Assembly: GCA_016882555.1 (NCBI GenBank)
Contig: VGPQ01000013.1
Span: forward strand, 1 to 11,835
Source of the DNA: Cyanobacteria bacterium M_surface_7_m2_040
GTDB taxonomy: Bacteria > Cyanobacteriota > Cyanobacteriia > PCC-6307 > Cyanobiaceae
Direction of reading: 5' to 3'
DNA: 11,835 nucleotides
Shown here one piece after another: positions 553 through 11,835 of the stretch. Every line of letters begins with the position of its first letter. The first letter of the stretch is position 1. The notes below the pieces were generated by a model, which saw only the letters and a program-made list of their open reading frames with translations, was not told the origin of the DNA and ran no database searches. The position numbers and the translations under genes are program-made.

Positions 553-3500
553 GTGAGCCGGCTTTTGTTGCGATTGTGGTCTGATCACCGATTCGCTGCG
601 GTGATCAGTGGATGCCTGTTGGCTCTTGGTCTGCTGATCACCCCATGGGCCCTAGTGCTCGTTCTGCTTGTCGGGGTTGGCGGTCCTCTCCTGAGCAGAA
701 CGGATGGAGCCAGGGCATCTGGTCTCGGCAGGCTGGGGCGGATCGAGTGGGCCTCGCTGGCGCTTGGGCTTGCCTCGGTGCTGCTGCTTCTGAATAGAGG
801 TGGAAGCCTGGTTGCCTTGCTCCTCGCGCTGATTCCAGTGGCATGGGCGCTGATCACGGACCGATCGCTCCTGCAATCAACAGACGGCACTGATCGGCGT
901 CTTCAACCCACTGCTCTGCCAGATGAGGAAGAACCCGAGGTTGCAGCCGAGATGGCAGAGGGCGAAGAGCTGACTGAGACGGAGCCTGCTCTGGCTGATC
1001 AGCCAGGCACGCCTCTTGCCGGAAGTGAGTTACTGGCCAGGATCAAGGAGATAGGCGATGTCGGCAAATCAGACATCGTGCGTGCATGCGGCTATGTAGG
1101 CCTGCGGCCTGATGGCTCAGAGCGCCTGAATTTCACCGCTTTCTACGAAGCACTCCTGGAGGCCAAGGGAATCGATGCCTCAGGAGACACATCAGATGAC
1201 GAAGCTGACGACAACTTACCGACTAACGAACGACTCATGAACCTGCCCAATGATTGGAAGAAACTGGACGATTCCGTAATCGTTGAACGCCTCAAGAGTT
1301 CAGCTGATGTCAGCGCCGAAGTGCTCACCGCATTGGCAGGATCCGACGACTGGGAAGTCCGGCGCGCAGTCGCCTGGCATGACAACACCCCGGAAGTGGT
1401 GTTAAGCACCCTGGCAGATGACGACGACTCGGATGTGCGTCAAGCGCTTGGTGAGCGTTCTCTGCCACGGGAATACCGCTATCGCAGTCAGGATGAAAAG
1501 ATTTCGGCTCTGCAGAGTGATGAGATCAATGCAGACATCATTGAGGCGCTTGCCAGCTCCGAAAACTGGTCACTGCGGCAGGCTGTGGCCTGGAGTCCCA
1601 GCACCTCAGATGCAGTGTTGTCCAGACTCAAGAAAGACGATGATGAGGATGTTCAGTTTGCCGCCAGCGAGGAACGCCTACTTCCCGTTGAATGGAGATT
1701 CCTTTCGATCTGGGAAAAAGCTGAACGCCTGGCCGAGCAATCTGTTGATGAGAGCATTCTCCGTGTGCTAGCGCAGGCTCGCGCTACAGAGGTGCGGCGG
1801 GCCGTCGCGCTCCATGAAGGCACACCGCAGGTGCTTCTTGACAGGCTTGCCGAAGACGATGATGTCAATGTCCAATCCGGCATCAGAGAACGCCAGCTTC
1901 CTGATCAGTGGAAAGCGCTCGAAGACGATGACCGTATAGCCGCGCTCAGAGAGCCAGGTGTGCCTGAGAGCGTCTTGGAAATTCTGGCTGGTTCTGGGAA
2001 CTGGTCCATTCGCCAGGCGGTAGCACTCTCTCCATCTACTCCCGATTCGGTTCTTGAGCGGCTTGCGGCCGATGAAGACACTGACGTCCAGTCGGCTATT
2101 CGCGAGCGTGATCTACCTGCAGAATGGAAGGTGCTGGATGAGGACGAAAAAGTTGAGCGCCTCAACGAAGGGAGCGTAGACCCAAGCATTCTTGACATCC
2201 TTGCGAAGTCAGGCCGCTGGACGATTCGACAGGCTGTGGCTCAAAACAGCGCTACAGCGGAAGTGACGCTCCGAGAATTGCTTCAGGATGACGATGACGA
2301 TGTTCAAAGCGCAGCCCGTAAGAGCTTGAAGAAACGTGGTGCTGGCGATAAAAGTACTGATTCATCAATTGCCTGGGATCAGCTGTTCAGTGCTGATGAA
2401 GACAAGGATGGCTTTGAGAGGTCTCCATTTGAAAATGTCCCTCACCTGCTCGAGCCACTCTCGGATGGCGAGAAGCTGATACTGGTCAACCTCGGCGTCA
2501 TCGAAGAAGAGTGCGATGAGTATCTGATGAAACTGTCAGAGAAAACCACTGCACTTTTGCCTGGCGACTGTGTCATTGAGAACGGCAGGCATGTCGCCAA
2601 TGTTGTTTCACACGGCAAGGCGAGAGTCGTTTTGGGCTGGAAGCTGCCCGACGACAAGCAGGATCTTCTGGCAGACCTTGAAAGGGACTGGTCAGAGGTC
2701 AAGGTCAATGGCGAAAAGACATTTGATGAATCCCTCAGTCCGTCTTTCGTCGACTATGGATCAACATCCACTTCTCCATCTGAGATCAGATTCCTTAAGC
2801 AAGACGGTACCTGGCATATCTGCATGCCTAATGATCTTGAATGGGAAGAGCGTGAAAGCACCTGCCTCGATGAGGATCGAGGTACTGGCTACTTTTCGAA
2901 TTACTTTGAATCCCGCGAAGAGCGTCCATATCAGGTCGCTGTTGTCAGCAAGTCAGGCAAGGGCTATGTGATCGAAGAGATTCCCGAGTCTGAGCTTGCA
3001 GACTTCAAGGCCTGGATTGTTCAGCGCCTGGATGGCCCTGGCCCTTCGGGTTCGGCACTCGCTGGAGACAGTGATGACGAGAGCCATTCCATTTATATCA
3101 AGACAGAGCCTGGTGGTCGGATTGCATTCGGCGCCCTGGATCTGGGTCAGATGCAGCAATTGCTGGAGTCGATTGCCAGTGGAGAGTTGGTCTCGGAGCT
3201 TGAGGAGTTGCGTGACAACTCCTACGGCTCGCTGAATGAATGCGACGGCGTGGTCAATAGTGGTGATGAAGGGGATTCAGGAAACGAAGGCACGATCGTC
3301 TTCAGTGCAGATCAGCCAGCCTTAGGCCCCAGCCTGAAAGATGACGGAAGTTTCGAGGATGGCGTCTATATCGTTTGGATGCGTCTCAGCAAGTGCTCCA
3401 TTGAATTCGAATTCAACGCAAGCGGTGGCTTCGATCGAGGCGAGTTCGAGGAGATTTCGGTGCCCGTGAAGCTGCCAGGAGAGATCATTCATAGACTTTA

Positions 3501-3717
3501 CGGCCATCCCGACTTCAATATCATCACCGGCTTCCGCTTCCGCGGTGAGCCGATTGAGGAATACGAAGGAGAAGTGGAGGATCGCGGTTATGACGACCAG
3601 CTCACGTTCTTCGCCGTCAAGGATGGAGAGACGACTGTGTTGTATAGCAATTACAACGGCGAGGAGGAGTGGTGTGATGAAGACAAGGCTAAGGCGGTGT
3701 TGTCATCCTTCCTCTGA
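553..3717 (+). CDS. Membrane-anchored protein with AbrB-like segment and LRV/HEAT-like repeats, 1054 aa
   Basis: The start is GTG at 553; an in-frame TGA at 529-531 excludes a longer form and the ATG at 551 is followed directly by a stop. Residues 13-29, 31-47, 66-80 and 84-101 are hydrophobic and predict four membrane spans, which would leave the rest in the cytoplasm. An acidic linker (about 121-153) leads to residues 157-207 (GSELLARIKEIGDV, KSD, ACGY, LNFTAFYEALLEAKG), which resemble the cyanobacterial AbrB-like family, a proposed DNA-binding module. Residues 231-595 are five tandem repeats of 72-73 residues with VRRAVA/IRQAVA, TPxxVL and DDDxDVQ signatures, typical of LRV/HEAT-like protein-binding solenoids. 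Residues 596-1054 are acidic and match nothing I recognise. No catalytic motif is visible. A scaffold or sensor role is an inference. A small gene follows after 12 bp. Confidence 0.9.
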   Translation: MSRLLLRLWSDHRFAAVISGCLLALGLLITPWALVLVLLVGVGGPLLSRTDGARASGLGRLGRIEWASLALGLASVLLLLNRGGSLVALLLALIPVAWALITDRSLLQSTDGTDRRLQPTALPDEEEPEVAAEMAEGEELTETEPALADQPGTPLAGSELLARIKEIGDVGKSDIVRACGYVGLRPDGSERLNFTAFYEALLEAKGIDASGDTSDDEADDNLPTNERLMNLPNDWKKLDDSVIVERLKSSADVSAEVLTALAGSDDWEVRRAVAWHDNTPEVVLSTLADDDDSDVRQALGERSLPREYRYRSQDEKISALQSDEINADIIEALASSENWSLRQAVAWSPSTSDAVLSRLKKDDDEDVQFAASEERLLPVEWRFLSIWEKAERLAEQSVDESILRVLAQARATEVRRAVALHEGTPQVLLDRLAEDDDVNVQSGIRERQLPDQWKALEDDDRIAALREPGVPESVLEILAGSGNWSIRQAVALSPSTPDSVLERLAADEDTDVQSAIRERDLPAEWKVLDEDEKVERLNEGSVDPSILDILAKSGRWTIRQAVAQNSATAEVTLRELLQDDDDDVQSAARKSLKKRGAGDKSTDSSIAWDQLFSADEDKDGFERSPFENVPHLLEPLSDGEKLILVNLGVIEEECDEYLMKLSEKTTALLPGDCVIENGRHVANVVSHGKARVVLGWKLPDDKQDLLADLERDWSEVKVNGEKTFDESLSPSFVDYGSTSTSPSEIRFLKQDGTWHICMPNDLEWEERESTCLDEDRGTGYFSNYFESREERPYQVAVVSKSGKGYVIEEIPESELADFKAWIVQRLDGPGPSGSALAGDSDDESHSIYIKTEPGGRIAFGALDLGQMQQLLESIASGELVSELEELRDNSYGSLNECDGVVNSGDEGDSGNEGTIVFSADQPALGPSLKDDGSFEDGVYIVWMRLSKCSIEFEFNASGGFDRGEFEEISVPVKLPGEIIHRLYGHPDFNIITGFRFRGEPIEEYEGEVEDRGYDDQLTFFAVKDGETTVLYSNYNGEEEWCDEDKAKAVLSSFL
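1243..2337 (+). repeat. Five in-frame tandem repeats of ~216-219 bp
   Basis: Within the large gene, repeat units begin at residues 231, 304, 377, 449 and 521 (nucleotides 1243, 1462, 1681, 1897 and 2113). Each starts with Leu-Pro-x-x-Trp/Tyr, has a helix around a W(S/T/E)(I/L/V)R(Q/R)AVA core, then TPxxVLxxLA, and closes with an acidic DDDxDV turn and an Arg-rich boundary (RERxLP). The first unit carries NDWKK, the third has Ala-Thr in place of the core Trp, and the last ends in a basic KSLKKR cap. The period equals three 24-residue LRV-type units. Similarity is clear in protein but the DNA copies have diverged. Confidence 0.85.
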
Positions 3718-3729
3718 GATCGCTTTCTC

Positions 3730-3903
3730 ATGCCCCGTATCGAGATCGAGTACCAGGACCAGTTCGGTCGCTGGCAGCACTACCAGACCATGCACAATCA
3801 AGCCAATGCCTTTCGCACAGCGCAGAACCGTGCACGCAGCACGGGGAAACGCCACCGCCTCACGGATGAGAACGGCAGTCTTCTGGATCTGATCGATCCC
3901 TGA
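3730..3903 (+). CDS. Small basic conserved-type protein, 57 aa, unknown function
   Basis: ATG at 3730 opens 57 codons ending in TGA at 3901-3903, in a different frame from the large gene, whose stop is 12 bp upstream. The product starts MPRIEIEYQDQFGRWQHYQ and ends in RHRLTDENGSLLDLIDP. The alternation of a beta-like start, a central basic helix (NAFRTAQNRARSTGKRHR) and an acidic-hydrophobic end reads as a compact folded domain rather than noise. It resembles short hypothetical proteins that I associate with marine Synechococcus, but I cannot name a family. Close spacing suggests co-transcription with the large membrane protein. No good Shine-Dalgarno motif precedes it, so translational coupling is possible. 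Confidence 0.7.
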   Translation: MPRIEIEYQDQFGRWQHYQTMHNQANAFRTAQNRARSTGKRHRLTDENGSLLDLIDP

Positions 3904-3999
3904 GTTCAGTGGCTCAGGGTTGGGGTGGTTGTTCGCAGGTGATTGGGCCTTGTTGATCCGCGCTCAGTTCATGGTGGTGGCCACTTGAGCCAGCCACCG

Positions 4000-4362
4000 A
4001 TGCAGAGCGATTCCACCCCCAACAGTCCTGATGAACTGGTAAAGAGGTTCAGTGAACGCCAGTCAGAGTTGGCGCAGGCCGGTGGCTACACCAGGCGCCA
4101 GAAACAGCTGCTTGACTCCCTGCTCGACAGCGATGATGACGAGCTGTTCAACGAGCGGTTCCACAAGCGACTGCTGATCGAGCTGGTGGGCTTCATGCAT
4201 GACTACCACCTGCGCTCAACGGCTCGCCGCCTGCGTGAGGGGGATTTTGAATCTGCCCTGCTCTGGCTTCAGGACAGCACGCGGCTCAGCCTCATTCAGG
4301 CTCAGATCGAGGGAATAGCGATCTCCGAAACGGACTCGGCTGAGGGAGCCTCAGGCACTTAG
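4000..4362 (+). CDS. Hypothetical helical protein, 120 aa
   Basis: I chose the ATG at 4000, giving MQSDSTPNSPDELVKRFSE. The frame is open further up to a TTG at 3943, but those 19 extra codons read as non-coding (GGGHLSQ) and ATG is the better start. The product is soluble and mostly alpha-helical by inspection: a charged helix (DELVKRFSERQSELAQ), a YTRRQKQLLDSLL segment with an acidic DSDDDE turn, then FNERFHKRLLIELVGFMHDYH and a helix-turn-helix-like pair ending LWLQDSTRLSLIQAQIEG. No catalytic motif, membrane span or cysteine is seen. The family is not recognised. It follows the 57-aa gene by 96 bp on the same strand and meets the HIRAN gene tail to tail, with 26 bp between the stops. Confidence 0.75.
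   Translation: MQSDSTPNSPDELVKRFSERQSELAQAGGYTRRQKQLLDSLLDSDDDELFNERFHKRLLIELVGFMHDYHLRSTARRLREGDFESALLWLQDSTRLSLIQAQIEGIAISETDSAEGASGT
4340..4354. terminator. Hairpin at convergent gene ends, weak terminator candidate
   Basis: CTGAGG (4340-4345) and CCTCAG (4349-4354) form a perfect 6-bp stem with a 3-base loop, just inside the 3' end of the 120-aa gene and 34 bp from the end of the convergent HIRAN gene. No T-run follows on either strand, so it does not meet the usual intrinsic terminator pattern. Most cyanobacteria lack Rho, so a hairpin at a convergent junction is worth marking, but chance is a fair alternative. Confidence 0.25.
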
Positions 4363-4388
4363 GCCGTCAGAGGGATCGGGCGAGGTCA

Positions 4389-6005
4389 TCAGTGGGCAGG
4401 GTTGTGGAGGTGCTTGCCGCAATGGCCGATCACCACCTGGCCCAGGTCGACGTCCCAGCAGAAGTGCAGGCGCAGGGTGCGGTTCTCGGAGTCTTTGGCA
4501 CCGATCTTGAGGTGCTGCCACATCTCCACTGTCTTGCCGCCATAGGAGAAGGTGCGGGCACGCCTGGCCTGGGGGTTGCGCTCGATCGTCTGCGATTCCC
4601 GGGGTGCATAGCTGTTGGCCCCGAACACCTGGCCGGCCACCATGTCCGGTGCACCGTCGAGTTTGCGCTGGCGAAAGCCGGTAGCCAACACCCAGAGCAG
4701 CTCGAACAGCTGTCCGCCGTGTTCAAACCCCTTGGCCTGGTCCGCGGAGTTCCAGGCACTCTCAAGAACAAGCACATGGCCCGGGCAGAGCTCCTCGCTC
4801 ACCAGCTGCAGGCACTGCCTCGGTTTAAGGCGCTCTTTCGCTGCCAGCGCACGGAGGCTATTGAACAGCCTCTCGCTCAGCTCCTGTTCAGATGCGCCGG
4901 AAGCAGCACCACTCCATGGTGATGGGCCATCACCTGAGCCGGCAACAAAGCCGACCTGCTGCAGGTAGTCCAGCTGAAGCTGAAGAGCATCGAGCTGATT
5001 GCCAGTCTGGGCCAGCTGGTCCTCGAGGGCCTGATTCTCCGCCAGTACCAGCTGCAGTTCCTGATCCCGCAGATCCAGCTGCTGCTTGAGTTCGCCCTCG
5101 ACGCTGGAGGCCAGCTCCATGGCCTGCTCGCCCTGTTCCTGGGCCTTTTCCGTACGCCGTTCCCAGGCTGCTTTGTTGAATTCGAACTCCCGCCGCAGCC
5201 GCCGCTCTTCTGAGCGGCTCGCCTCCAGGCGCCGGCTGATCTGCTCCTGCTGCTCCTCCAGTTCCCGGAGTCGCGTCTGCCGCTCGCGAACCCGCGTGGA
5301 TTCGCTCGGTACGCCGAACAGTGAACGGATCAGCTGCTCCACCCTGGCGGGATCATCCGGAGCCTTGCCGCTGCTGTCGGTCAGGCTGAGATACCAGGGG
5401 TAATGGCGTCCGTCCTGGGTGGGGTAATAGCTGTACCCGCACTTGCTCACGTCGTAGCTGGCGCTGAGCAGCTCCTGCAGTTCACGCAGGGCGGTTTCGG
5501 TGCAGTTGATCACCAGCCGCAGCTTGTCCCCGGCGCTGGTGCGATCGAAATCCCAGGCGAAAGCACTGGTGACCCCCAGCCCTCGCAGGCGGCGGCTGGC
5601 ACGACGGATCGGGATGGAGATCTGCAGCCGAAAGGCATCGCGCTGCGAGGTGGTGGTCAATCCGGTGACAACCGCCTCCAGTCCACTACCTGCCTCCGGC
5701 ACTTCAGCAGCAATCAGGGCTGCCATGTCCTTGGGGATGTAGCCGATCCACTGCTCCCGCCAGAACACCTTGACGGCGTTGGCGTCCCACGGGTTGTCCG
5801 GTTCATGGCGCAGGGTGAGCGGATCACCGATGGCGATGCCGAGGGCCATCTTCTCGGCAGCCTGATCGAGCTTGTAGGCGAGAAAGGTCTGCAGGATCTC
5901 GCCGCTGCTGTGCTGCTGCCGCTTCTGCCGAGCAGCCTGGCGTTCGGCGCTGCCGGCCTGACCCAGGTGTTGGAGGCGCTGGAAGAGACTGTGCTTGGGC
6001 ACCAT
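4389..6005 (-). CDS. HIRAN domain-coiled-coil protein with unassigned C-terminal domain, 538 aa
   Basis: ATG is at 6005-6003. Residues about 50-132 carry a HIRAN domain: GIAIGDPLTLRHEPDNPWD, then ANAVKV and QWIGYIPKDMAALIA. HIRAN domains (named after HIP116/HLTF and Rad5) bind DNA ends or stalled-fork structures; in eukaryotes they are fused to SNF2 helicases, in bacteria also to nucleases or free-standing. Residues 140-215 may be a second small domain (AFAWDFDRT, CGYSYYPTQDG). Residues about 235-350 form a charged, Glu/Gln/Arg-rich coiled coil. Residues 375-535 form a globular domain with conserved-looking positions (FG-SYAPRES, RTFSYGGKTVEMWQHLKIG, LHFCWDVD, VVIGHCGKHL); the clustered His, Cys, Asp and Glu could be catalytic, but I cannot assign it. 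No helicase motif is present. Its gene follows the YhaN-like ATPase by 56 bp on the same strand, suggesting a shared function in DNA-end handling. Confidence 0.88.
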   Translation of the reverse strand: MVPKHSLFQRLQHLGQAGSAERQAARQKRQQHSSGEILQTFLAYKLDQAAEKMALGIAIGDPLTLRHEPDNPWDANAVKVFWREQWIGYIPKDMAALIAAEVPEAGSGLEAVVTGLTTTSQRDAFRLQISIPIRRASRRLRGLGVTSAFAWDFDRTSAGDKLRLVINCTETALRELQELLSASYDVSKCGYSYYPTQDGRHYPWYLSLTDSSGKAPDDPARVEQLIRSLFGVPSESTRVRERQTRLRELEEQQEQISRRLEASRSEERRLRREFEFNKAAWERRTEKAQEQGEQAMELASSVEGELKQQLDLRDQELQLVLAENQALEDQLAQTGNQLDALQLQLDYLQQVGFVAGSGDGPSPWSGAASGASEQELSERLFNSLRALAAKERLKPRQCLQLVSEELCPGHVLVLESAWNSADQAKGFEHGGQLFELLWVLATGFRQRKLDGAPDMVAGQVFGANSYAPRESQTIERNPQARRARTFSYGGKTVEMWQHLKIGAKDSENRTLRLHFCWDVDLGQVVIGHCGKHLHNPAH

Positions 6006-6039
6006 GGCTCAGGCCCTGATCCACCGAGGTTAGGAAACC

Positions 6040-6060
6040 CGCCAGGCGATGCCTCTGGCG
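6040..6060. terminator. Inverted repeat after the SbcC-like gene
   Basis: CGCCAG (6040-6045) and CTGGCG (6055-6060) pair perfectly over 6 bp around a 9-base loop. In the direction of transcription (minus) the hairpin begins right after the SbcC-like stop codon (6064-6062) and is followed by only three T residues. It could attenuate transcription into the HIRAN gene or stabilise the upstream message. A full terminator is unlikely given the short T-run. Confidence 0.25.
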
Positions 6061-6061
6061 A

Positions 6062-8779
6062 TCAGCTCCCCAGCTCCACCACCTGATCAGCAAAACCGCC
6101 ATAGGCGGCCGGATCGCAAGTGAGCAGGATCACCTGCAGCCCCCGATCCACGGCGGTACCCAGCATCCCTTTCACCAGGTCCACCCGTTCAGGGTCCGAG
6201 TTGGTGAAGGCATCGTCAAACACCAGGGGCAGACAACCGTCATGGCTGCCTTTCAGCACATCGGCCATCGACAGCCGCAGGGCGGCTGCGAGCTGCTCGC
6301 GCATGCCACCGCTGAGCTGCTCGAAGGCATAGAACTCCTGGCCGCGCCGCAGCCGCAGTCCGCCAAACCCCTTGCTCTGGTCGTAATTGAGCTGGGCTAC
6401 GGGACCGTCGGAAATCAATGGCCCCAGATAGCTGCCGATGGCCTGGGCCAGCGGTTCGCTGTAGCGGCTGGAGAGATCGGCCTGGGCTTCCAGAAACAGT
6501 TGCTGCAGGAGCTTGTGGGCTTCCGTGAGCCGCTTGAGGCTCTTGTGATCGCCATGGGCTGCCTCCAGCAGGGCCCTGGCCTGCTCGGCGGCGGCATAGG
6601 GATCCTCATTGCTGATGCTGTCGCAGCGCTGCTTGGCGGCGCCACGCTGATCAATGAGTTGTTCGATCTGACGTTGCAGCGCTTCCAGCTGCTCCTGCAG
6701 GGCACTGAGCTCCTGCTCGTTGTCTCCACTGCCGAGTGCGGCGCGTTCGGTCTGCAGCCGCTGCAGCTCCCCCTCCGCCTGCTGCCGTTCCAGGGCCAAC
6801 GTTGTGAGCTGGGCGGCCAGGCCATCACGGCTGCCATGGCCTTGCTGCAGTGCCTCGCGCCGGCTGCGCCGATCGCTGCATTCGGCCTGCAGGATCTGCA
6901 GCTGGCTGGTTTCGCTGAGCCGTGCTTGCTGAAACTCCTGCAGTGCGGCCTGGGCGGCATCCAGATCCACTTCCGCCTGCCGGTAGGCAGCCGTGGTGTG
7001 ACTGAGGGTCTGGCTCAGTTGCTGATGCAGGGTCTGCAGCTCAGCCGCACCGATAGGCAGAGCCTGCTCCTGCTCCAGCAGCTGCCGGCACTCGCGCAGG
7101 GCATCCAGCTGCGGCTCCAACTGGCTCAGCTGTTGCGCCAGGTTGTCCTGGTCCAGCTCAAGTGCCTGCAAGTCCGACAGTGGTGTGGCGGCTTGGGCCG
7201 AGAGCTGCTGCTCCAGGGTTGATCGTTGGTCGGCCGCCTGCTCAGCGGCCTCAACCGAGTTCACCGCGAGTTCACTGAGCCGTTCGTCAAACGATTGCTC
7301 CGCCGCGATGCAGGCCGACTCCAGATCCCCTAAGGCCTTGCCACCTCCAGGTGTGATTTCCAGGGCGACCCCCTCGCCCACCTGCAGCTCAAAGGTGGAA
7401 CTCAGCTGACGCTGGTCACCGCTTTGCAGCAGTTCACCATTGATGCGGACGGGCTGGTCGCTGCGCAGCAACCGCACCCCAGCGGCCATGGCCTGCTGTC
7501 TTGTACGGGCATCACGGCTCTGCTGCTGCAGGTCGCGCAGCTGTTGCACTTCAGCGCGACTGAGGGGAGGCAGTGCCGCCAGTTGCTGCTCCAGCTCCCG
7601 GCGCCTGGCATGGCCCTGCTGGAGTTGTTCGAGCTCCTTGGCCAGCCGCTGCTGGGCCTCCTGGGTGCGGGCATGCTCCAGCAGCAGTTGAACCAATTGA
7701 TGGCGCTGCTCAAGAGTGAGTTTCTGGGAGGCCAGTGCAGCCCTGCTGGTGCGCCGTTCCTCAAGCGTTGTGGCGAGGGCCAGCTCACGGGCATCGGCTC
7801 CCTGCTGACTGCCCTGCAGCTGTTGCAGCTGCTGCTCGCGTTCACTGAGCTCAGTGGCCAACGCATCAAATTGCTGCAGCTGGTTCTGGGCGGTCTCATG
7901 GCGCAGGCGCAGCGGTTCCAATGCCTGGGCGGCCAACTGAACGGCCGCCTCCAAGCGGCTCGAGGCCTCGGCCCCCTGGCTGATCAGACGCCGGCGTTCC
8001 TCCAGCGCCGGCAGGTCCCTTCCCTGCAGTTGCTCGAGCTGTTCGCCGATCTCGGCGAGCTCAGCGCTGGCGTCTTCGTAGTCGGCGAGCCGTGCCAGAG
8101 CCTGATTCATGGCCAGCTCGGCATTCTCCAGCTCTTCCTGGCGCTGCCAGAGCGGCGAATTCTTCTTCACTCCACGGGTGGTGAAGTTCTCCTCCAGCGC
8201 GGTATCAACGCGCTGGGCCACGCGTTGATCGTGGGCGGACTGTTGCACCACAGCCCCGCCGCTCTGCTCCAGCTGGGCCAGTAGCGCATCGAAGTCGTAA
8301 CTGGCCTTTCCGGCCTCGAGCAGGTTGTCGCCGGCGGCGCCCTGCATCACCCAGAGATGGGCCCAGCGGGTGGGCAGGATCGTGGTGGCCTGTTTACTGC
8401 CAACGGTTTCCTTCACACCCACGAGTTCAGCCAGCACCTCCTCCGCCACCGGGCCACTGAGCTGTTGTCCACTGGCCTCAGAGAGCAGGCTCACCTGGCC
8501 GGAGGTACCGCTGAAGCGCTTGCGCAGCGTCCAGGTATCCCCCTTGGCCTCGAAGGCGAGGGACACCACGGGCTGCCCGAGATGCAGCCGCGACTGCAGC
8601 GCTTCCACGGGCGCACCTGTGGCCGAGGCCTTGAGAAAGAGGGCGCGGTGCAATGCTTCCACCAGGGTGCTCTTGCCGCTCTCATTGGCGCCGCCGATCA
8701 GGGTGATGCGGGGCGAGAAGTCGAGGCTGAGATCCCCATGCAGCCTCACGTTCTGCAGTTGGCAGTGAAGAAGGCGCAT
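6062..8779 (-). CDS. SbcC/Rad50-like (YhaN-type) coiled-coil ATPase, 905 aa
   Basis: ATG is at 8779-8777. The N-terminus (MRLLHCQLQNVRLHG) leads to a Walker A motif at residues 30-38 (GANESGKST). Residues about 170-790 are long Gln/Glu/Leu-rich coiled coils, broken near 437-490 by a beta-rich insert (VRINGELL, FELQVGEGVALEITPGGG). The C-terminus holds the ABC signature LSGGMREQLAAALRL (from residue 822), Walker B LPLVFDDAF (850-858) and a D-loop-like TNSDPERV. This is the SMC/Rad50 split-ATPase layout. No CxxC zinc hook is found, and the size and motifs fit YhaN or the Rv1278 group better than classical SbcC. The family forms ATP-driven complexes with an Mre11-like nuclease to process DNA ends in the cytoplasm. 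The nuclease gene lies 5 bp upstream, so the two very likely form one complex. No Shine-Dalgarno motif is evident, so translation may be coupled. Confidence 0.93.
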   Translation of the reverse strand: MRLLHCQLQNVRLHGDLSLDFSPRITLIGGANESGKSTLVEALHRALFLKASATGAPVEALQSRLHLGQPVVSLAFEAKGDTWTLRKRFSGTSGQVSLLSEASGQQLSGPVAEEVLAELVGVKETVGSKQATTILPTRWAHLWVMQGAAGDNLLEAGKASYDFDALLAQLEQSGGAVVQQSAHDQRVAQRVDTALEENFTTRGVKKNSPLWQRQEELENAELAMNQALARLADYEDASAELAEIGEQLEQLQGRDLPALEERRRLISQGAEASSRLEAAVQLAAQALEPLRLRHETAQNQLQQFDALATELSEREQQLQQLQGSQQGADARELALATTLEERRTSRAALASQKLTLEQRHQLVQLLLEHARTQEAQQRLAKELEQLQQGHARRRELEQQLAALPPLSRAEVQQLRDLQQQSRDARTRQQAMAAGVRLLRSDQPVRINGELLQSGDQRQLSSTFELQVGEGVALEITPGGGKALGDLESACIAAEQSFDERLSELAVNSVEAAEQAADQRSTLEQQLSAQAATPLSDLQALELDQDNLAQQLSQLEPQLDALRECRQLLEQEQALPIGAAELQTLHQQLSQTLSHTTAAYRQAEVDLDAAQAALQEFQQARLSETSQLQILQAECSDRRSRREALQQGHGSRDGLAAQLTTLALERQQAEGELQRLQTERAALGSGDNEQELSALQEQLEALQRQIEQLIDQRGAAKQRCDSISNEDPYAAAEQARALLEAAHGDHKSLKRLTEAHKLLQQLFLEAQADLSSRYSEPLAQAIGSYLGPLISDGPVAQLNYDQSKGFGGLRLRRGQEFYAFEQLSGGMREQLAAALRLSMADVLKGSHDGCLPLVFDDAFTNSDPERVDLVKGMLGTAVDRGLQVILLTCDPAAYGGFADQVVELGS

Positions 8780-8784
8780 GGCTG

Positions 8785-9966
8785 TCAGCGGGTAGTGAAG
8801 CGGAAGAGTTCACAGAGCGCCGCCCGGGCGATGGCGGCCTGCTCAGATTCGGGGTCGTCATCGCGCTGCAGCCGGTGCTGCAGCTGCTCAGCCACACGGG
8901 CGATCAGGGGGTCCTCCACCCGACCGGTGAGCTGCTCGAGCTCCGCGGCTTCCGGCGCCTGCTGACACTCGCCTTTCAGCCGCAGGCGCAGTAGCCGGTT
9001 CTCCAGGTCGCTGACGAGCTGGTCGTAGCGCTGGTGACCGGCCAGGCTGAGGCTGCCGCTCACCTCAACCCGCAGCAGATCACGGGCGACACGCCCTGCG
9101 GTGAGCTCCTCCACCTGCCGCTCGAAACGATCGAGATCCGCATCGCTGTTGAAGCGGAAGCGGATGTTGTGCCACCTGATGCGGCCGGTGGGCACGATCT
9201 GTACCTGGGGAGCGGCGCTCCGCTCCAGCTCCACCTGCAGCACCTGGCCGCGCTGGTTGTCTTCCCCCTGATCGAACTGATCGGGCTCGGGGGTGCCGGA
9301 GTACCAGGCGCACTCCGACACCTGCTTGAGGTTGTGCCAATCGCCCAGGGCGATGTAGTCGATCTCGCGGGCCGGCAGGGCGTCGAGATCGATCAGGTTG
9401 TTGGCACCGGCCTGGGCCTCTTCATCGATGCTGTAGTCGCGGCCGCTGAAGCCATGCACACCGCCATGGGCCAGCACGAGGCGCGGCTTCTGCTGCGGCA
9501 GAGCGCTCCAGTCGAGGCCGCGCAGCCAGAGGGTGGGATCGGCGGAGTCCTGGTTGCGCAGCAGCGGGCAGGGCAGCACCACCGCCTGCTCCAGCTCCAC
9601 GGGCTGGCGTTCCAGCAGCAGCTGCAGGTTCGGGGCCATCTGGCGCTGATGGCGCTGGAAGTCGTCGCGGTGCCACACCGTCCCTGGGGCACCGTGGTCG
9701 TGGTTACCGGGGATCACCAGCACGGGGATCTCCATCTCACCGATGGCTTCCAGCACCTCAAGCACTGCTGTGGTGGGCGGCGTTGGTGAATCGAAGAGAT
9801 CCCCTGCCACGACCACGAACTGGGCCGCCTGGATGCGGGCGGCATCGCGGATCCGGCCGATGGCGCTCAGCCGCTCCTGCTGCAGGCGAAAGCGCTTCTG
9901 CTCATCGCCCACCTGCCGGTACGACTTGCCGATCTGCCAGTCGGCCGTGTGGATCAAGCGGGTCAT
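8785..9966 (-). CDS. SbcD/Mre11-like metallophosphoesterase nuclease, 393 aa
   Basis: The start at 9966-9964 (MTRLIHTADWQIGKS) is set by a strong GGAGG site 7 bases upstream and by overlap with the helicase stop; longer in-frame starts would overlap the helicase gene by well over 100 bases. Metal-binding motifs of the calcineurin-like nuclease fold are present: H6 and D9 with Q11 (TADWQIG), GDLFD at 55-59, GNHD at 87-90, H167 in LVLAHGG, and GDWH at 208-211. The residue after D-W is Gln where classical SbcD/Mre11 has His, a feature I associate with the Rv1277-like branch that pairs with YhaN/Rv1278-type ATPases. The C-terminal third (about 240-393) would be the ATPase-contacting and capping part. 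The product should be a Mn-dependent nuclease acting with the SbcC-like ATPase encoded 5 bp downstream. Confidence 0.93.
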   Translation of the reverse strand: MTRLIHTADWQIGKSYRQVGDEQKRFRLQQERLSAIGRIRDAARIQAAQFVVVAGDLFDSPTPPTTAVLEVLEAIGEMEIPVLVIPGNHDHGAPGTVWHRDDFQRHQRQMAPNLQLLLERQPVELEQAVVLPCPLLRNQDSADPTLWLRGLDWSALPQQKPRLVLAHGGVHGFSGRDYSIDEEAQAGANNLIDLDALPAREIDYIALGDWHNLKQVSECAWYSGTPEPDQFDQGEDNQRGQVLQVELERSAAPQVQIVPTGRIRWHNIRFRFNSDADLDRFERQVEELTAGRVARDLLRVEVSGSLSLAGHQRYDQLVSDLENRLLRLRLKGECQQAPEAAELEQLTGRVEDPLIARVAEQLQHRLQRDDDPESEQAAIARAALCELFRFTTR

Positions 9967-11835
9967 GCGCTCACCTCCATGGGCAGAGCCTTGCAGTCTG
10001 CCGCCATGAGCCGGCACAGCCGGTTGAGCTGGCGCACGCCGTCCACGGAGCTGCTGATGTCCGTCGCCAGCCGAGGCGAGCCCACCACGATGCAGAGGCA
10101 CTGGGCCCGGCTGATGGCCACGTTGAGCCGGTTCGGATCGAGCACGAACGACAGGCCACGGGGCGCACTGTCGCCATCACTGGCTGTCAGCGAGTGAATG
10201 GCCACCGGCGCCTCCTGACCCTGAAAGCGATCCACGGTGCCGACCCGGGCCAGGTCTCCCAGGCGGCGCTGCAGACGGTTCACCTGCAGGTTGTACGGAG
10301 CGGTGATCAGGATGTCGTTCGGTGTGAGTGTGTGCTCCTCGCACACCAACACCCCATCCCGAAAGCGCATGCGCGCGTAAGGGCGTTCGAGCAGGCGCTC
10401 GACCAGGGCAGCAATGGCCTCCCCCTCCTCGTCGCTGGCGCTGCCGTTGCCCTCATGCTCCACCGGTTGAAACAGCAGCCCCTGCTCGAGGCCATCCCAG
10501 AGCACCCGGTTGGCGGCATTCTCAGCGCTGCCCTGCAGCTCGCCCTGATAGAAGAGCTGCGACACCAGATCCGTGAGCACAGGCGGCATCCGCCAGCTGG
10601 TGGCGAGAAACACGCCGCGCTCGGGCGGCACGACCGGCTGGCCGTCCATCCCATAGTCCAGGCAGCTGAGGCCGCTGTCATCGGGGTGCTTGGCGCGGTT
10701 CGGCTGGGAGAGCTGCTGTTGATCACCCACCAACAGGATGTTGCGGGCGCATTGACTCATGTACAGCAGGTTGCTGAGCGACACCTGGCCGGCCTCATCA
10801 ATCACCAGCAGGTCAAAAGGAGCGTCGGCATGGCTCTCCTTCACCAGGCTGAACACGGTGGCGCCGAGCACGTCGGGCTCCTGTCTGATCGCCGACTCGC
10901 GCAGGGCCTGCACGGCGCAGCCGTGGAGGGAGCGCTGATCATTCATCTCGCTGGTGCTGCTGGAGAGTTTCACCACCAGCCCCGGGCCGCCAAGCTGCTC
11001 GATCTGGCTCTGGGTGCGCTTGAGCAGGTTGTTGATCGCTTCATGGCCCTGGGAGCTGACGGCCACCCGTTGCCCCTGTTGCACCAGGCGGGCGATCAAC
11101 TCTCCGGTCACGGTGGTCTTGCCGGTTCCCGGCGGCCCCTGCAGTGACAGCGCCAGGCCATCCGCTGAGCCAAGAAAGGCAGCCAACTGGGTGGCCGTTG
11201 TCTGCGGTTGCAGGCGGATCGAGGCATTGAGGTCCCTTAGCGCCGGAATCGCTCGACGTTCCAGCAGGTGCTGCATGGCCGCCGGCAAAGGCTGTCGCCC
11301 GTTCACCCAGGCCTGGGCCTGGCGCACCAGATCCGGGAGCATGCGTTTGTAGATCTGCTTGGGCAGGGGGATCAGATCGCAGATGTCCGGCAGATCGGCA
11401 TGGCCGAGGCTCTGCAGCTCCTGCAACTTGCGACCGCTCAGTTTCAGGGTCACGACGCAGGGGTCGTCGGCATCCAACACGCCATCCACATCGAAGGCCT
11501 TGCCATCGACGCGGCGCACGATGTCCTGGGTGGTCAGCGCGCCGCTGGCTTGCAAGAGCAGCGGTGCCATCGCAAAGCGCAGCTGCTGACCAGGCTTGGC
11601 CGCCAGCTTGAGGGGCTGTTGGGCGGAGAAGCGGTAGCGGTAGCCACGGCTCTGGCTGGTGAGCTGTTCAGGCGCGCCATCGCGCACCGCTGCCGCAATC
11701 ACCTCGGTGTCGTCATCGCGCTCTTCCGCGCTCATGCCATTGATGCGGTTGAAGAACTCCCACCACTCCACCTTCCCCTCGCGCTCCTGGAAGTCGACCA
11801 GCTGGGCCAGCAGCTTCTGGTGTGTCCAGCTGAGG
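9963..11835 (-). CDS. Dna2/UPF1-like SF1 helicase, C-terminal part (N-terminus outside window)
   Basis: The frame is open to the right edge; the GTG at 11771 is probably internal, because the 21 codons upstream of it also read as protein (LSWTHQKLLAQLVDFQE). Superfamily 1 motifs follow in order: Walker A GPPGTGKTT (11138-11112), VSSQGHEAINNLL, Walker B DLLVIDEAGQ (near 10790-10815), LVGDQQQLSQP, FLATSWRMP, GTVDRFQGQE and LNVAISRAQC (near 10100-10125). This is the AAA_11/AAA_12 arrangement of the Dna2/UPF1 group. The 'EWWEFFNR' segment and the C-terminal end resemble proteins of the TM0106 RecB-like nuclease group, whose N-terminal half is a nuclease; that half would lie beyond the window, so the nuclease call is an inference. 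The protein should unwind DNA ends with ATP. Its stop overlaps the SbcD-like start by 4 bases, placing it first in the visible operon. Confidence 0.9.
   Translation of the reverse strand, partial: LSWTHQKLLAQLVDFQEREGKVEWWEFFNRINGMSAEERDDDTEVIAAAVRDGAPEQLTSQSRGYRYRFSAQQPLKLAAKPGQQLRFAMAPLLLQASGALTTQDIVRRVDGKAFDVDGVLDADDPCVVTLKLSGRKLQELQSLGHADLPDICDLIPLPKQIYKRMLPDLVRQAQAWVNGRQPLPAAMQHLLERRAIPALRDLNASIRLQPQTTATQLAAFLGSADGLALSLQGPPGTGKTTVTGELIARLVQQGQRVAVSSQGHEAINNLLKRTQSQIEQLGGPGLVVKLSSSTSEMNDQRSLHGCAVQALRESAIRQEPDVLGATVFSLVKESHADAPFDLLVIDEAGQVSLSNLLYMSQCARNILLVGDQQQLSQPNRAKHPDDSGLSCLDYGMDGQPVVPPERGVFLATSWRMPPVLTDLVSQLFYQGELQGSAENAANRVLWDGLEQGLLFQPVEHEGNGSASDEEGEAIAALVERLLERPYARMRFRDGVLVCEEHTLTPNDILITAPYNLQVNRLQRRLGDLARVGTVDRFQGQEAPVAIHSLTASDGDSAPRGLSFVLDPNRLNVAISRAQCLCIVVGSPRLATDISSSVDGVRQLNRLCRLMAADCKALPMEVSA
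9974..9978 (-). promoter_or_regulatory. Strong Shine-Dalgarno site of the SbcD-like gene
   Basis: On the minus strand GGAGG (9978-9974) lies 7 bases before the ATG at 9966, ideal spacing. It is inside the last codons of the helicase gene, whose TGA (9965-9963) overlaps the ATG as ATGA. Helicase and nuclease are therefore probably translated in a coupled way. Other genes of the cluster show no comparable site, so this start may be re-initiated especially efficiently. Confidence 0.75.

Follow-up and report, generated by a model that had tools for sequence, protein, structure and literature searches.

The DNA examined here, hereafter the window, is one whole contig (C13; VGPQ01000013.1, 11,835 bp) of the incomplete assembly of Cyanobacteria bacterium M_surface_7_m2_040, a member of the Cyanobiaceae (genome G000; 524 contigs, 81% complete). 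Its minus strand carries four genes, which encode a helicase, an Mre11-like protein, a Rad50-like protein and a HIRAN protein in this order. We give about an even chance that, in freshwater picocyanobacteria, these genes represent an accessory DNA-end-processing unit which is shuffled horizontally and most likely targets foreign DNA. This reading draws on the gene order and its recurrence, the nuclease and helicase motifs conserved in relatives, the pairing of closely related HIRAN genes with two Rad50 lineages, the adjacency of ubiquitin-like conjugation genes, the patchy distribution and some defence-type neighbours. The window copy is the version of the unit without the conjugation module.

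A preliminary description of the window had noted four genes that share a strand and are spaced by -4, +5 and +56 bp, and the coordinates confirmed this observation. The helicase stop at 9963 and the Mre11 ATG at 9966 give a junction of -4 bp, the Mre11 stop at 8785 and the Rad50 ATG at 8779 one of +5 bp, and the Rad50 stop at 6062 and the HIRAN ATG at 6005 one of +56 bp. Further, Pfam assigned SF1 helicase, metallophosphoesterase, Rad50-type ATPase and HIRAN domains to the four products. A simple sigma-70 scan of positions 3700-11835 returned no sites (0.6 expected), which speaks neither for nor against a single transcript. All four genes were found in the same order in five genomes, namely that of the window and those with loci L061, L062, L068 and L042, the last with a broken HIRAN gene. 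Given this recurrence, the order is more than chance. Between helicase and Mre11, L061 and L062 carry a 251-amino-acid (aa) gene and an antisense gene, and L068 carries a PHD/PIN-like toxin-antitoxin pair (read by eye).

The HIRAN protein was matched in 19 of 390 genomes of the family, and the matches were strong (at least 45% identity over at least 140 residues) in 15 genomes at 16 loci; weak matches in G049, G091, G457 and G473, and at a second place in G423, were set aside. At 10 of these 16 loci, the next gene upstream of HIRAN on the same strand was Rad50, whether intact, partial or a remnant (G000, G436=L061, G465=L062, G430=L063, G506=L064, G080=L066, G105=L065, G438=L067, G447 C14=L068 and G072=L042). 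The two genes lay within 90 bp of each other at eight of these loci, 386 bp apart in L068 and about 0.7 kb apart in L042. Only remnants of Mre11-Rad50 were left in G506 and G080, and G473, from the weak set, had HIRAN remnants directly behind an intact Mre11-Rad50 pair. The helicase preceded the pair at six of the 16 loci (G000, L061, L062, L068, L042 and, as a fragment, L066). At L064, L065, L067 and L070, the upstream sequence is missing, and no helicase was found in the 6 kb read upstream in L063. In G101, the helicase, Mre11 and Rad50 genes form a group, and HIRAN lies about 18 kb off, as does a fragment of a helicase gene. Thus, the four-gene system of the preliminary description stood as a linked, patchily distributed DNA-end-processing set, some copies of which are near defence-type genes, but not as an obligate block, which we rejected because the partner genes are separable. 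Scattering of the genes in relatives without co-occurrence, which that description had named as evidence against itself, was found in part; however, the HIRAN-Rad50 adjacency recurred, and with two Rad50 lineages.

The HIRAN-linked Rad50 proteins fell into two deep clades of a tree built by a quick method from 48 of the 53 proteins collected (five short ones were dropped), and its well-supported branches forced at least five label changes. HIRAN of the window and of L063 were 76% identical, whereas their Rad50 proteins were 35% identical; between L063 and L067, in contrast, HIRAN was 67.5% and Rad50 83% identical. These data are most simply explained if HIRAN and its Mre11-Rad50 partner were re-paired at least once. 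Two deeply different Rad50 lineages as partners of HIRAN point to a modular set and not to one block. Repeated re-pairing would indicate that the partners are functionally tied and were not just inherited passively as a block, although the same pattern could arise if one insertion site were used again and again.

A search of 151 genomes of the family (E up to 0.001) yielded 9 with HIRAN, 26 with the helicase, 92 with the Mre11-like protein and 73 with the Rad50-like protein, the last two counts including weak matches and the second, different pair described below. Mre11-Rad50 pairs of these families were common without HIRAN or helicase. The HIRAN protein was matched in 12 of 292 genomes of the phylum, over the whole protein only in G000 and G101, and the family genomes with a HIRAN gene were named Synechococcus, Cyanobium and Vulcanococcus. 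A further search gave 215 matches to the HIRAN protein, most of them from metagenomes. No HIRAN gene was found in the five other genomes sampled from the genus of the window. In G144, one of the five, a short contig carries parts of the helicase, Mre11 and Rad50 genes and breaks off within Rad50, so that the HIRAN gene of this genome may merely be unassembled. Remnants and breaks were found in G072, G080, G473, G002 and G059. No phage-borne matches were found in two collections, and we rejected a phage-borne element accordingly. As for defence-type genes, PADLOC detected DruE (Druantia-type) in L068; DruE-like, GmrSD and DpdE-like genes were present in L043, and DrmD-type (DISARM-type) helicases in L161 and L162.

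These distributions bear on housekeeping double-strand-break repair, in which a second SbcCD-like resection operon with a helicase and a HIRAN end-binder would protect the chromosome. In its favour, every part matches a family of repair proteins, Mre11-Rad50 pairs are widespread in the Cyanobiaceae, a genome often having just one, and the G023 helicase adjoins a NAD-dependent DNA ligase gene. However, the strong HIRAN gene is restricted to the 15 genomes above and is lacking in the rest of the genus as sampled, the loci include remnants and breaks, some are near defence-type genes, and the host has a second, different Mre11-Rad50 pair on contig C4. The patchy, decaying and re-paired distribution would fit an accessory role against foreign DNA better, and we consider housekeeping repair unlikely.

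The HIRAN protein matched PF08797 at 3.7e-11 (43.2 bits; gathering score 24.7). It consists of a HIRAN domain (residues 57-128), a long coiled coil in the predicted model (about 235-346) and a conserved C-terminal domain (about 373-538). The first ten rows of a Foldseek search were the HIRAN domain of HLTF (best probability 1.00, E 0.0097, 61 columns). HLTF is the human HIRAN translocase with a RING ubiquitin ligase (PMC4666394, in the part available). According to the available part of PMC11237066, its HIRAN domain binds 3'-OH DNA ends, and HLTF requires this domain to remove Cas9 from broken DNA ahead of Mre11-type resection. HLTF joins HIRAN, a DNA motor and ubiquitin chemistry, whereas here the corresponding parts are in separate genes, and Pfam found neither an SNF2 nor a RING domain in the window proteins; any functional similarity to HLTF would be by analogy only.

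The C-terminal domain of the HIRAN protein matched the PADLOC models HEC-07 (2.3e-14) and NsnC (3.8e-10). NsnC is a component of Menshen, and HEC-07 belongs to a PADLOC candidate class; in this comparison, which draws on model names, the partner genes differ from those here. The domain also matched 144 plasmid records, and the 20 of these matches that were listed (Pseudomonas, Klebsiella and Moellerella) covered residues 384-533 only. Two plasmid proteins were scanned and had no HIRAN domain. The 529-aa proteins at L072:3846-5435 (Klebsiella plasmid) and L073:4825-6414 (Pseudomonas plasmid) share only the C-terminal domain with the window protein, at about 40% identity. This domain looks worth separate study.

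The nuclease and ATPase genes are adjacent in the window (6062-9966, +5 bp), and their products matched Metallophos (5.8e-12) and AAA_23 (2.7e-13) plus AAA_27, respectively. The Mn-type nuclease motifs of the preliminary description stood as a metallophosphoesterase domain but are not canonical: motif I is D-W-Q and motif V is G-D-W-H in all 49 family proteins aligned (52 were collected and 3 shorter than 351 aa dropped), at positions where the solved relative 4o24 has DWH and GHIH. Likewise, the Rad50-type ATPase has Walker A, signature and Walker B motifs, which are for the most part shared by the 44 proteins aligned (53 were collected and 9 of 800 aa or less dropped), but the CxxC zinc hook is absent from the window protein and from 43 of the 44. 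The match to TIGR00619 (SbcD), 55.6 bits, was under the curated cut-off of 77.65. The two changed metal-ligand positions and the lack of a zinc hook place the Mre11-Rad50-like pair in a divergent branch. It resembles SbcCD/Mre11-Rad50 (TIGR00619, NF008206; Pfam AAA_23) as a nuclease-ATPase gene pair with the ATPase motifs and five recognisable phosphoesterase motif positions. It differs in the changes of the motif I His to Gln and the first motif V His to Asp, in the missing hook and in the extra HIRAN and helicase genes. We therefore rejected an ordinary SbcCD, since defining features of the canonical family are lacking.

Lamassu (LmuA/LmuB/LmuC), described as Rad50/SMC-like in the available part of PMC10586767, likewise ties a Rad50-like ATPase to a nuclease, and LmuB models matched weakly (1.6e-12). 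However, the nuclease beside Rad50 is Mre11-like here. Neither LmuA nor LmuC was found in the complete match lists (at E 0.1) of the Rad50 neighbours, the Mre11-like and HIRAN proteins, or among the matches listed for five window proteins (the best 25 of 47 for the Rad50-like protein). We rejected Lamassu because the genes flanking Rad50 match neither LmuA nor LmuC.

The window helicase matched AAA_12 (1.3e-23) and AAA_11 (5e-18), as expected of an SF1 helicase. Its frame is open to the contig end, and its start need not be the listed GTG. Relatives at the loci read are about 1,150-1,210 aa long, and the half that is absent from the window protein holds two nuclease-type domains in them. All three full-length relatives scanned matched the RecB-like TM0106 nuclease model TIGR03491 at 205-209 bits (cut-off 97), and the one scanned for an RNase H-like (DEDD) domain had it. 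RecB-type (H-D-ExK-QxxxY) and DEDD-type residues were conserved in 9 of 9 aligned full-length helicases, and core helicase residues in 10 of 10 aligned proteins, the window protein included. This conservation strengthens the comparison with Dna2. The claim of a Dna2-like helicase was thus borne out, and its relatives carry a nuclease too. For the window protein itself, the gene of which is cut before that half, we infer a nuclease half from the relatives. The three scanned relatives, with SF1 helicase motifs, resemble the Dna2-like/TM0106 nuclease-helicases; relatives here differ in adding the RNase H-like domain, and the window copy in being truncated.

Members of the helicase family are also found apart from Mre11-Rad50, as in L050, where one lies beside HmaC/HmaB-like genes. 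At L050:317-10503, a helicase relative overlaps an HmaC-like (DUF499) gene that is followed by an HmaB-like (DUF1156 methylase) gene, and L052:68-10143 has a three-gene layout that matches it by size. The comparison of the window with Hma (helicase-methylase-ATPase) covers the genes behind the helicase, the DNA before it being beyond the contig. There, Mre11 and Rad50 occupy the positions of HmaB/HmaC, and we rejected Hma on this basis.

A gene cluster that the window does not show recurred beside HIRAN in its relatives. In L061, L062, L063, L069 and L045, it consists of an E2-like gene, a JAB peptidase gene (PF14464), an E1 gene (ThiF, PF00899) and a gene for a small apparent membrane protein, assigned by Pfam in L061 and by similarity in the other loci. 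Seven of the 16 strong HIRAN loci are within 6 kb of an E2-like gene, and five of these have the full E2-JAB-E1 set. L065 ends inside an E2 gene directly behind HIRAN and L066 has only an E2 fragment; JAB and E1 were not seen in either. The E2 gene is the next same-strand gene behind HIRAN, at about 110-430 bp, in G023, G080, G105 and G430. PADLOC CBASS models matched E2 (2.6e-11), JAB (3.2e-16) and E1 (1.6e-27), and the E2 cysteine was conserved in 5 of 5 complete aligned proteins. The E2 gene was found in 9 of the 390 genomes, of which seven have HIRAN, always within 6 kb (hypergeometric 9e-10, kinship ignored). In G498, the cluster is intact without HIRAN and beside type III-B CRISPR genes, and in G472 only remnants were found. 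At L166:5314-14674 (G498), the E2-JAB-E1-membrane cluster lies beside genes for Cas10, Cmr3 and a CARF protein.

The window had no match for E2, JAB or E1, and E2, the only one of the three sought in the incomplete genome of the window, was not found there. A DUF3293 gene lies just past the E2-JAB-E1 cluster in L063, and the start of such a gene is at the left end of the window. This piece suggests that the site is the same and that the cluster was probably lost together with most of the DUF3293 gene; its absence at this end may also be a contig error. The preliminary description could not include this recurrent conjugation cluster, since the window lacks it.

We suggest that the cluster belongs with bacterial conjugation operons such as the E1-E2-JAB types 6a-6e in the available part of PMC1779556, where types 6d and 6e have a ubiquitin-like modifier. 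As in these operons and type II CBASS, E2, JAB and E1 form one sporadic cluster with JAB next to E1; here, in contrast, each of the three has its own gene, and the genes are linked to HIRAN and Mre11-Rad50. The product of the small gene behind E1 is, as judged by eye, an apparent membrane protein without a C-terminal Gly, and no ubiquitin-like modifier was recognised, no beta-grasp search having been made. Bil and Bub are further ubiquitin-like conjugation operons of bacteria with a modifier. The genes scanned included no recognised ubiquitin-like protein and, among the neighbours scanned in relatives (part of all neighbours), no CD-NTase (cGAS-like) gene. We rejected CBASS for the window, which lacks E1-E2-JAB; nor was a nucleotidyltransferase seen among those neighbours.

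For an accessory unit directed at foreign DNA, we propose the following course. The HIRAN protein would recognise a DNA end, probably a 3' end by analogy with HLTF, and its coiled coil and C-terminal domain would bring the end to the Mre11-Rad50-like nuclease-ATPase. The Dna2-like helicase-nuclease would then unwind, degrade or resect the end, and the E2-JAB-E1 module, in several relatives, would switch or mark a component. We infer in this way the formation of a complex, the binding of ends, the target and the role of the conjugation genes. Several observations weigh against this reading. HIRAN is without Mre11-Rad50 next door at five (G447 C60=L069, G023, G101, G423 and G505) of the 15 strong loci that are testable, that of G074 being cut by the contig. 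The HIRAN tree is weak (3 of 12 inner branches well supported), so that partner switches are uncountable; it forces no more than one switch to the A-type partner, and a single origin of the A-type pairing is possible. The predicted HIRAN model is weak as well, with every 10-residue block of residues 1-240 below 60 in predicted local distance difference test (pLDDT) score. The changed Mre11-like motifs could mean altered or lost activity. When genera were collapsed and same-genome pairs alone were counted, the probability of the E2-HIRAN co-occurrence was about 1e-3. The search for defence neighbours covered a selection of genes at a selection of loci, with no background rate for comparison, and many of the chosen neighbours had no PADLOC match (5 of 10 at 1e-8, 6 of 10 at 1 and 2 of 8 at 1e-3); the proximity to defence genes is therefore circumstantial, and we claim no enrichment.

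The conjugation genes could also have a more central part than in the accessory unit proposed above. In a DNA-end surveillance under ubiquitin-like control, HIRAN would find the end, Mre11-Rad50 and the Dna2-like helicase-nuclease would process it, and E2-JAB-E1 would conjugate a component or a DNA-bound protein as a switch, which would make the system a prokaryotic equivalent of HLTF/MRN end processing that exchanges its Mre11-Rad50 between lineages; we regard this as doubtful. Alternatively, the HIRAN protein may serve mainly as an adaptor for, or a substrate of, the ubiquitin-like enzymes, as if an HLTF-like combination had been divided over several genes, with Mre11-Rad50 as the regulated nuclease. 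The seven of nine E2-bearing genomes with HIRAN beside E2, the conserved E2 cysteine and the matches to CBASS-type models are consistent with this. However, nine of the 16 strong HIRAN loci, the window included, show no E2 in the sequence available (some are cut by contig ends), E2 is only partial in G080 and G105, where JAB and E1 were not seen, the cluster of G498 is intact without HIRAN, that of G472 is in remnants, and no modifier was recognised; we hold such a role to be rather improbable. Least likely, and in our view quite improbable, is a hotspot at the HIRAN site that gathers unrelated accessory genes without joint function, since, for all the variable contents (the PHD/PIN-like pair, the antisense gene, the leucine-rich-variant genes) and the DUF3293 piece shared by L063 and the window, HIRAN is next behind a same-strand Rad50 at 10 of 15 testable loci, closely at eight and with two Rad50 lineages, and E2 follows HIRAN on the same strand in four genomes.

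Other features of the window and its relatives are included in Table 1. Two plus-strand genes of the window are convergent with the four-gene set and downstream of it. The smaller of these is also found behind HIRAN in L061 and L062. The larger encodes a leucine-rich-variant (LRV)/HEAT repeat protein. Genes of this kind separate HIRAN from the E2 cluster in L061 and L062, and one adjoins helicase-Mre11-Rad50 in L044; the gene may be a partner of the operon or a mere neighbour. Among the LRV/HEAT proteins of the window (553-3717), L044 (14221-18630) and L061 (12233-15385), the length varies, the ends are conserved and the repeats differ. The 251-aa gene of L061 (4030-4785) and L062 (4035-4790) starts 3 bp behind the helicase stop; the copies are 85% identical, and that of L061 had no match in Pfam or PADLOC. 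A conserved gene of about 146-161 aa precedes the helicase in L042, L046, L059, L062 and L068 and precedes HIRAN in L069. Its relative in the window genome (L122:198-677, 159 aa) showed a sub-threshold Acb2/Tad1 hairpin domain (20.3 bits against 27); Acb2/Tad1 phage proteins bind cyclic nucleotides. Upstream of it, L122:732-2132 (contig C244) is a 466-aa gene with a weak WCX match, a WYL-type regulator by eye, and no helicase frame was present in the roughly 200 bases left on the contig beyond the relative.

Table 1. Features of the window and of related loci, with the basis of each assignment.
Feature	Coordinates	Strand	Basis
SF1 (Upf1/Dna2-type) helicase, C-terminal 623 aa, cut by contig end	9963..11834	-	Pfam, motifs
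Mre11/SbcD-like metallophosphoesterase, 393 aa, variant motifs DWQ and GDWH	8785..9966	-	profiles, alignment
Rad50/SbcC-like ATPase, 905 aa; Walker A, signature, Walker B; without zinc hook	6062..8779	-	profiles, alignment
HIRAN protein, 538 aa	4389..6005	-	Pfam, predicted structure, Foldseek, PADLOC
Small convergent gene, 139-aa frame; start at 4000 by coding score	3943..4362	+	
Leucine-rich-variant/HEAT repeat protein, 1,054-aa frame; coding score prefers start 778	553..3717	+	
DUF3293 gene piece, N-terminal residues 8-53, 89% identical to L063 gene	2..139	+	
Gene of about 146-161 aa	L069:4979-5464, L068:722-1207, L042:6166-6606, L046:7288-7758, L062:2-178, L059:8244-8651		

The combination of HIRAN, Mre11-Rad50, helicase and conjugation genes was found in no title or abstract opening among the openly licensed papers that the searches listed. 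In the available parts of single papers, Mre11, SbcC, RecB, Upf1 and ubiquitin each had 0 occurrences in PMC12458937; HIRAN had 3 and Mre11, SbcC and ubiquitin 0 in PMC11090510; and HIRAN, SbcC and helicase had 0 in PMC1779556. The conjugation genes beside a DNA-end-processing set may mark an undescribed defence or repair machine. If our reading is true, bacteria would couple an Mre11-Rad50 nuclease to a HIRAN end-binder, and part of the family would add ubiquitin-like conjugation. This would provide a small, genetically tractable system for ubiquitin-type control of DNA-end processing, and an Mre11-based member would join the Rad50/SMC-like defence systems.

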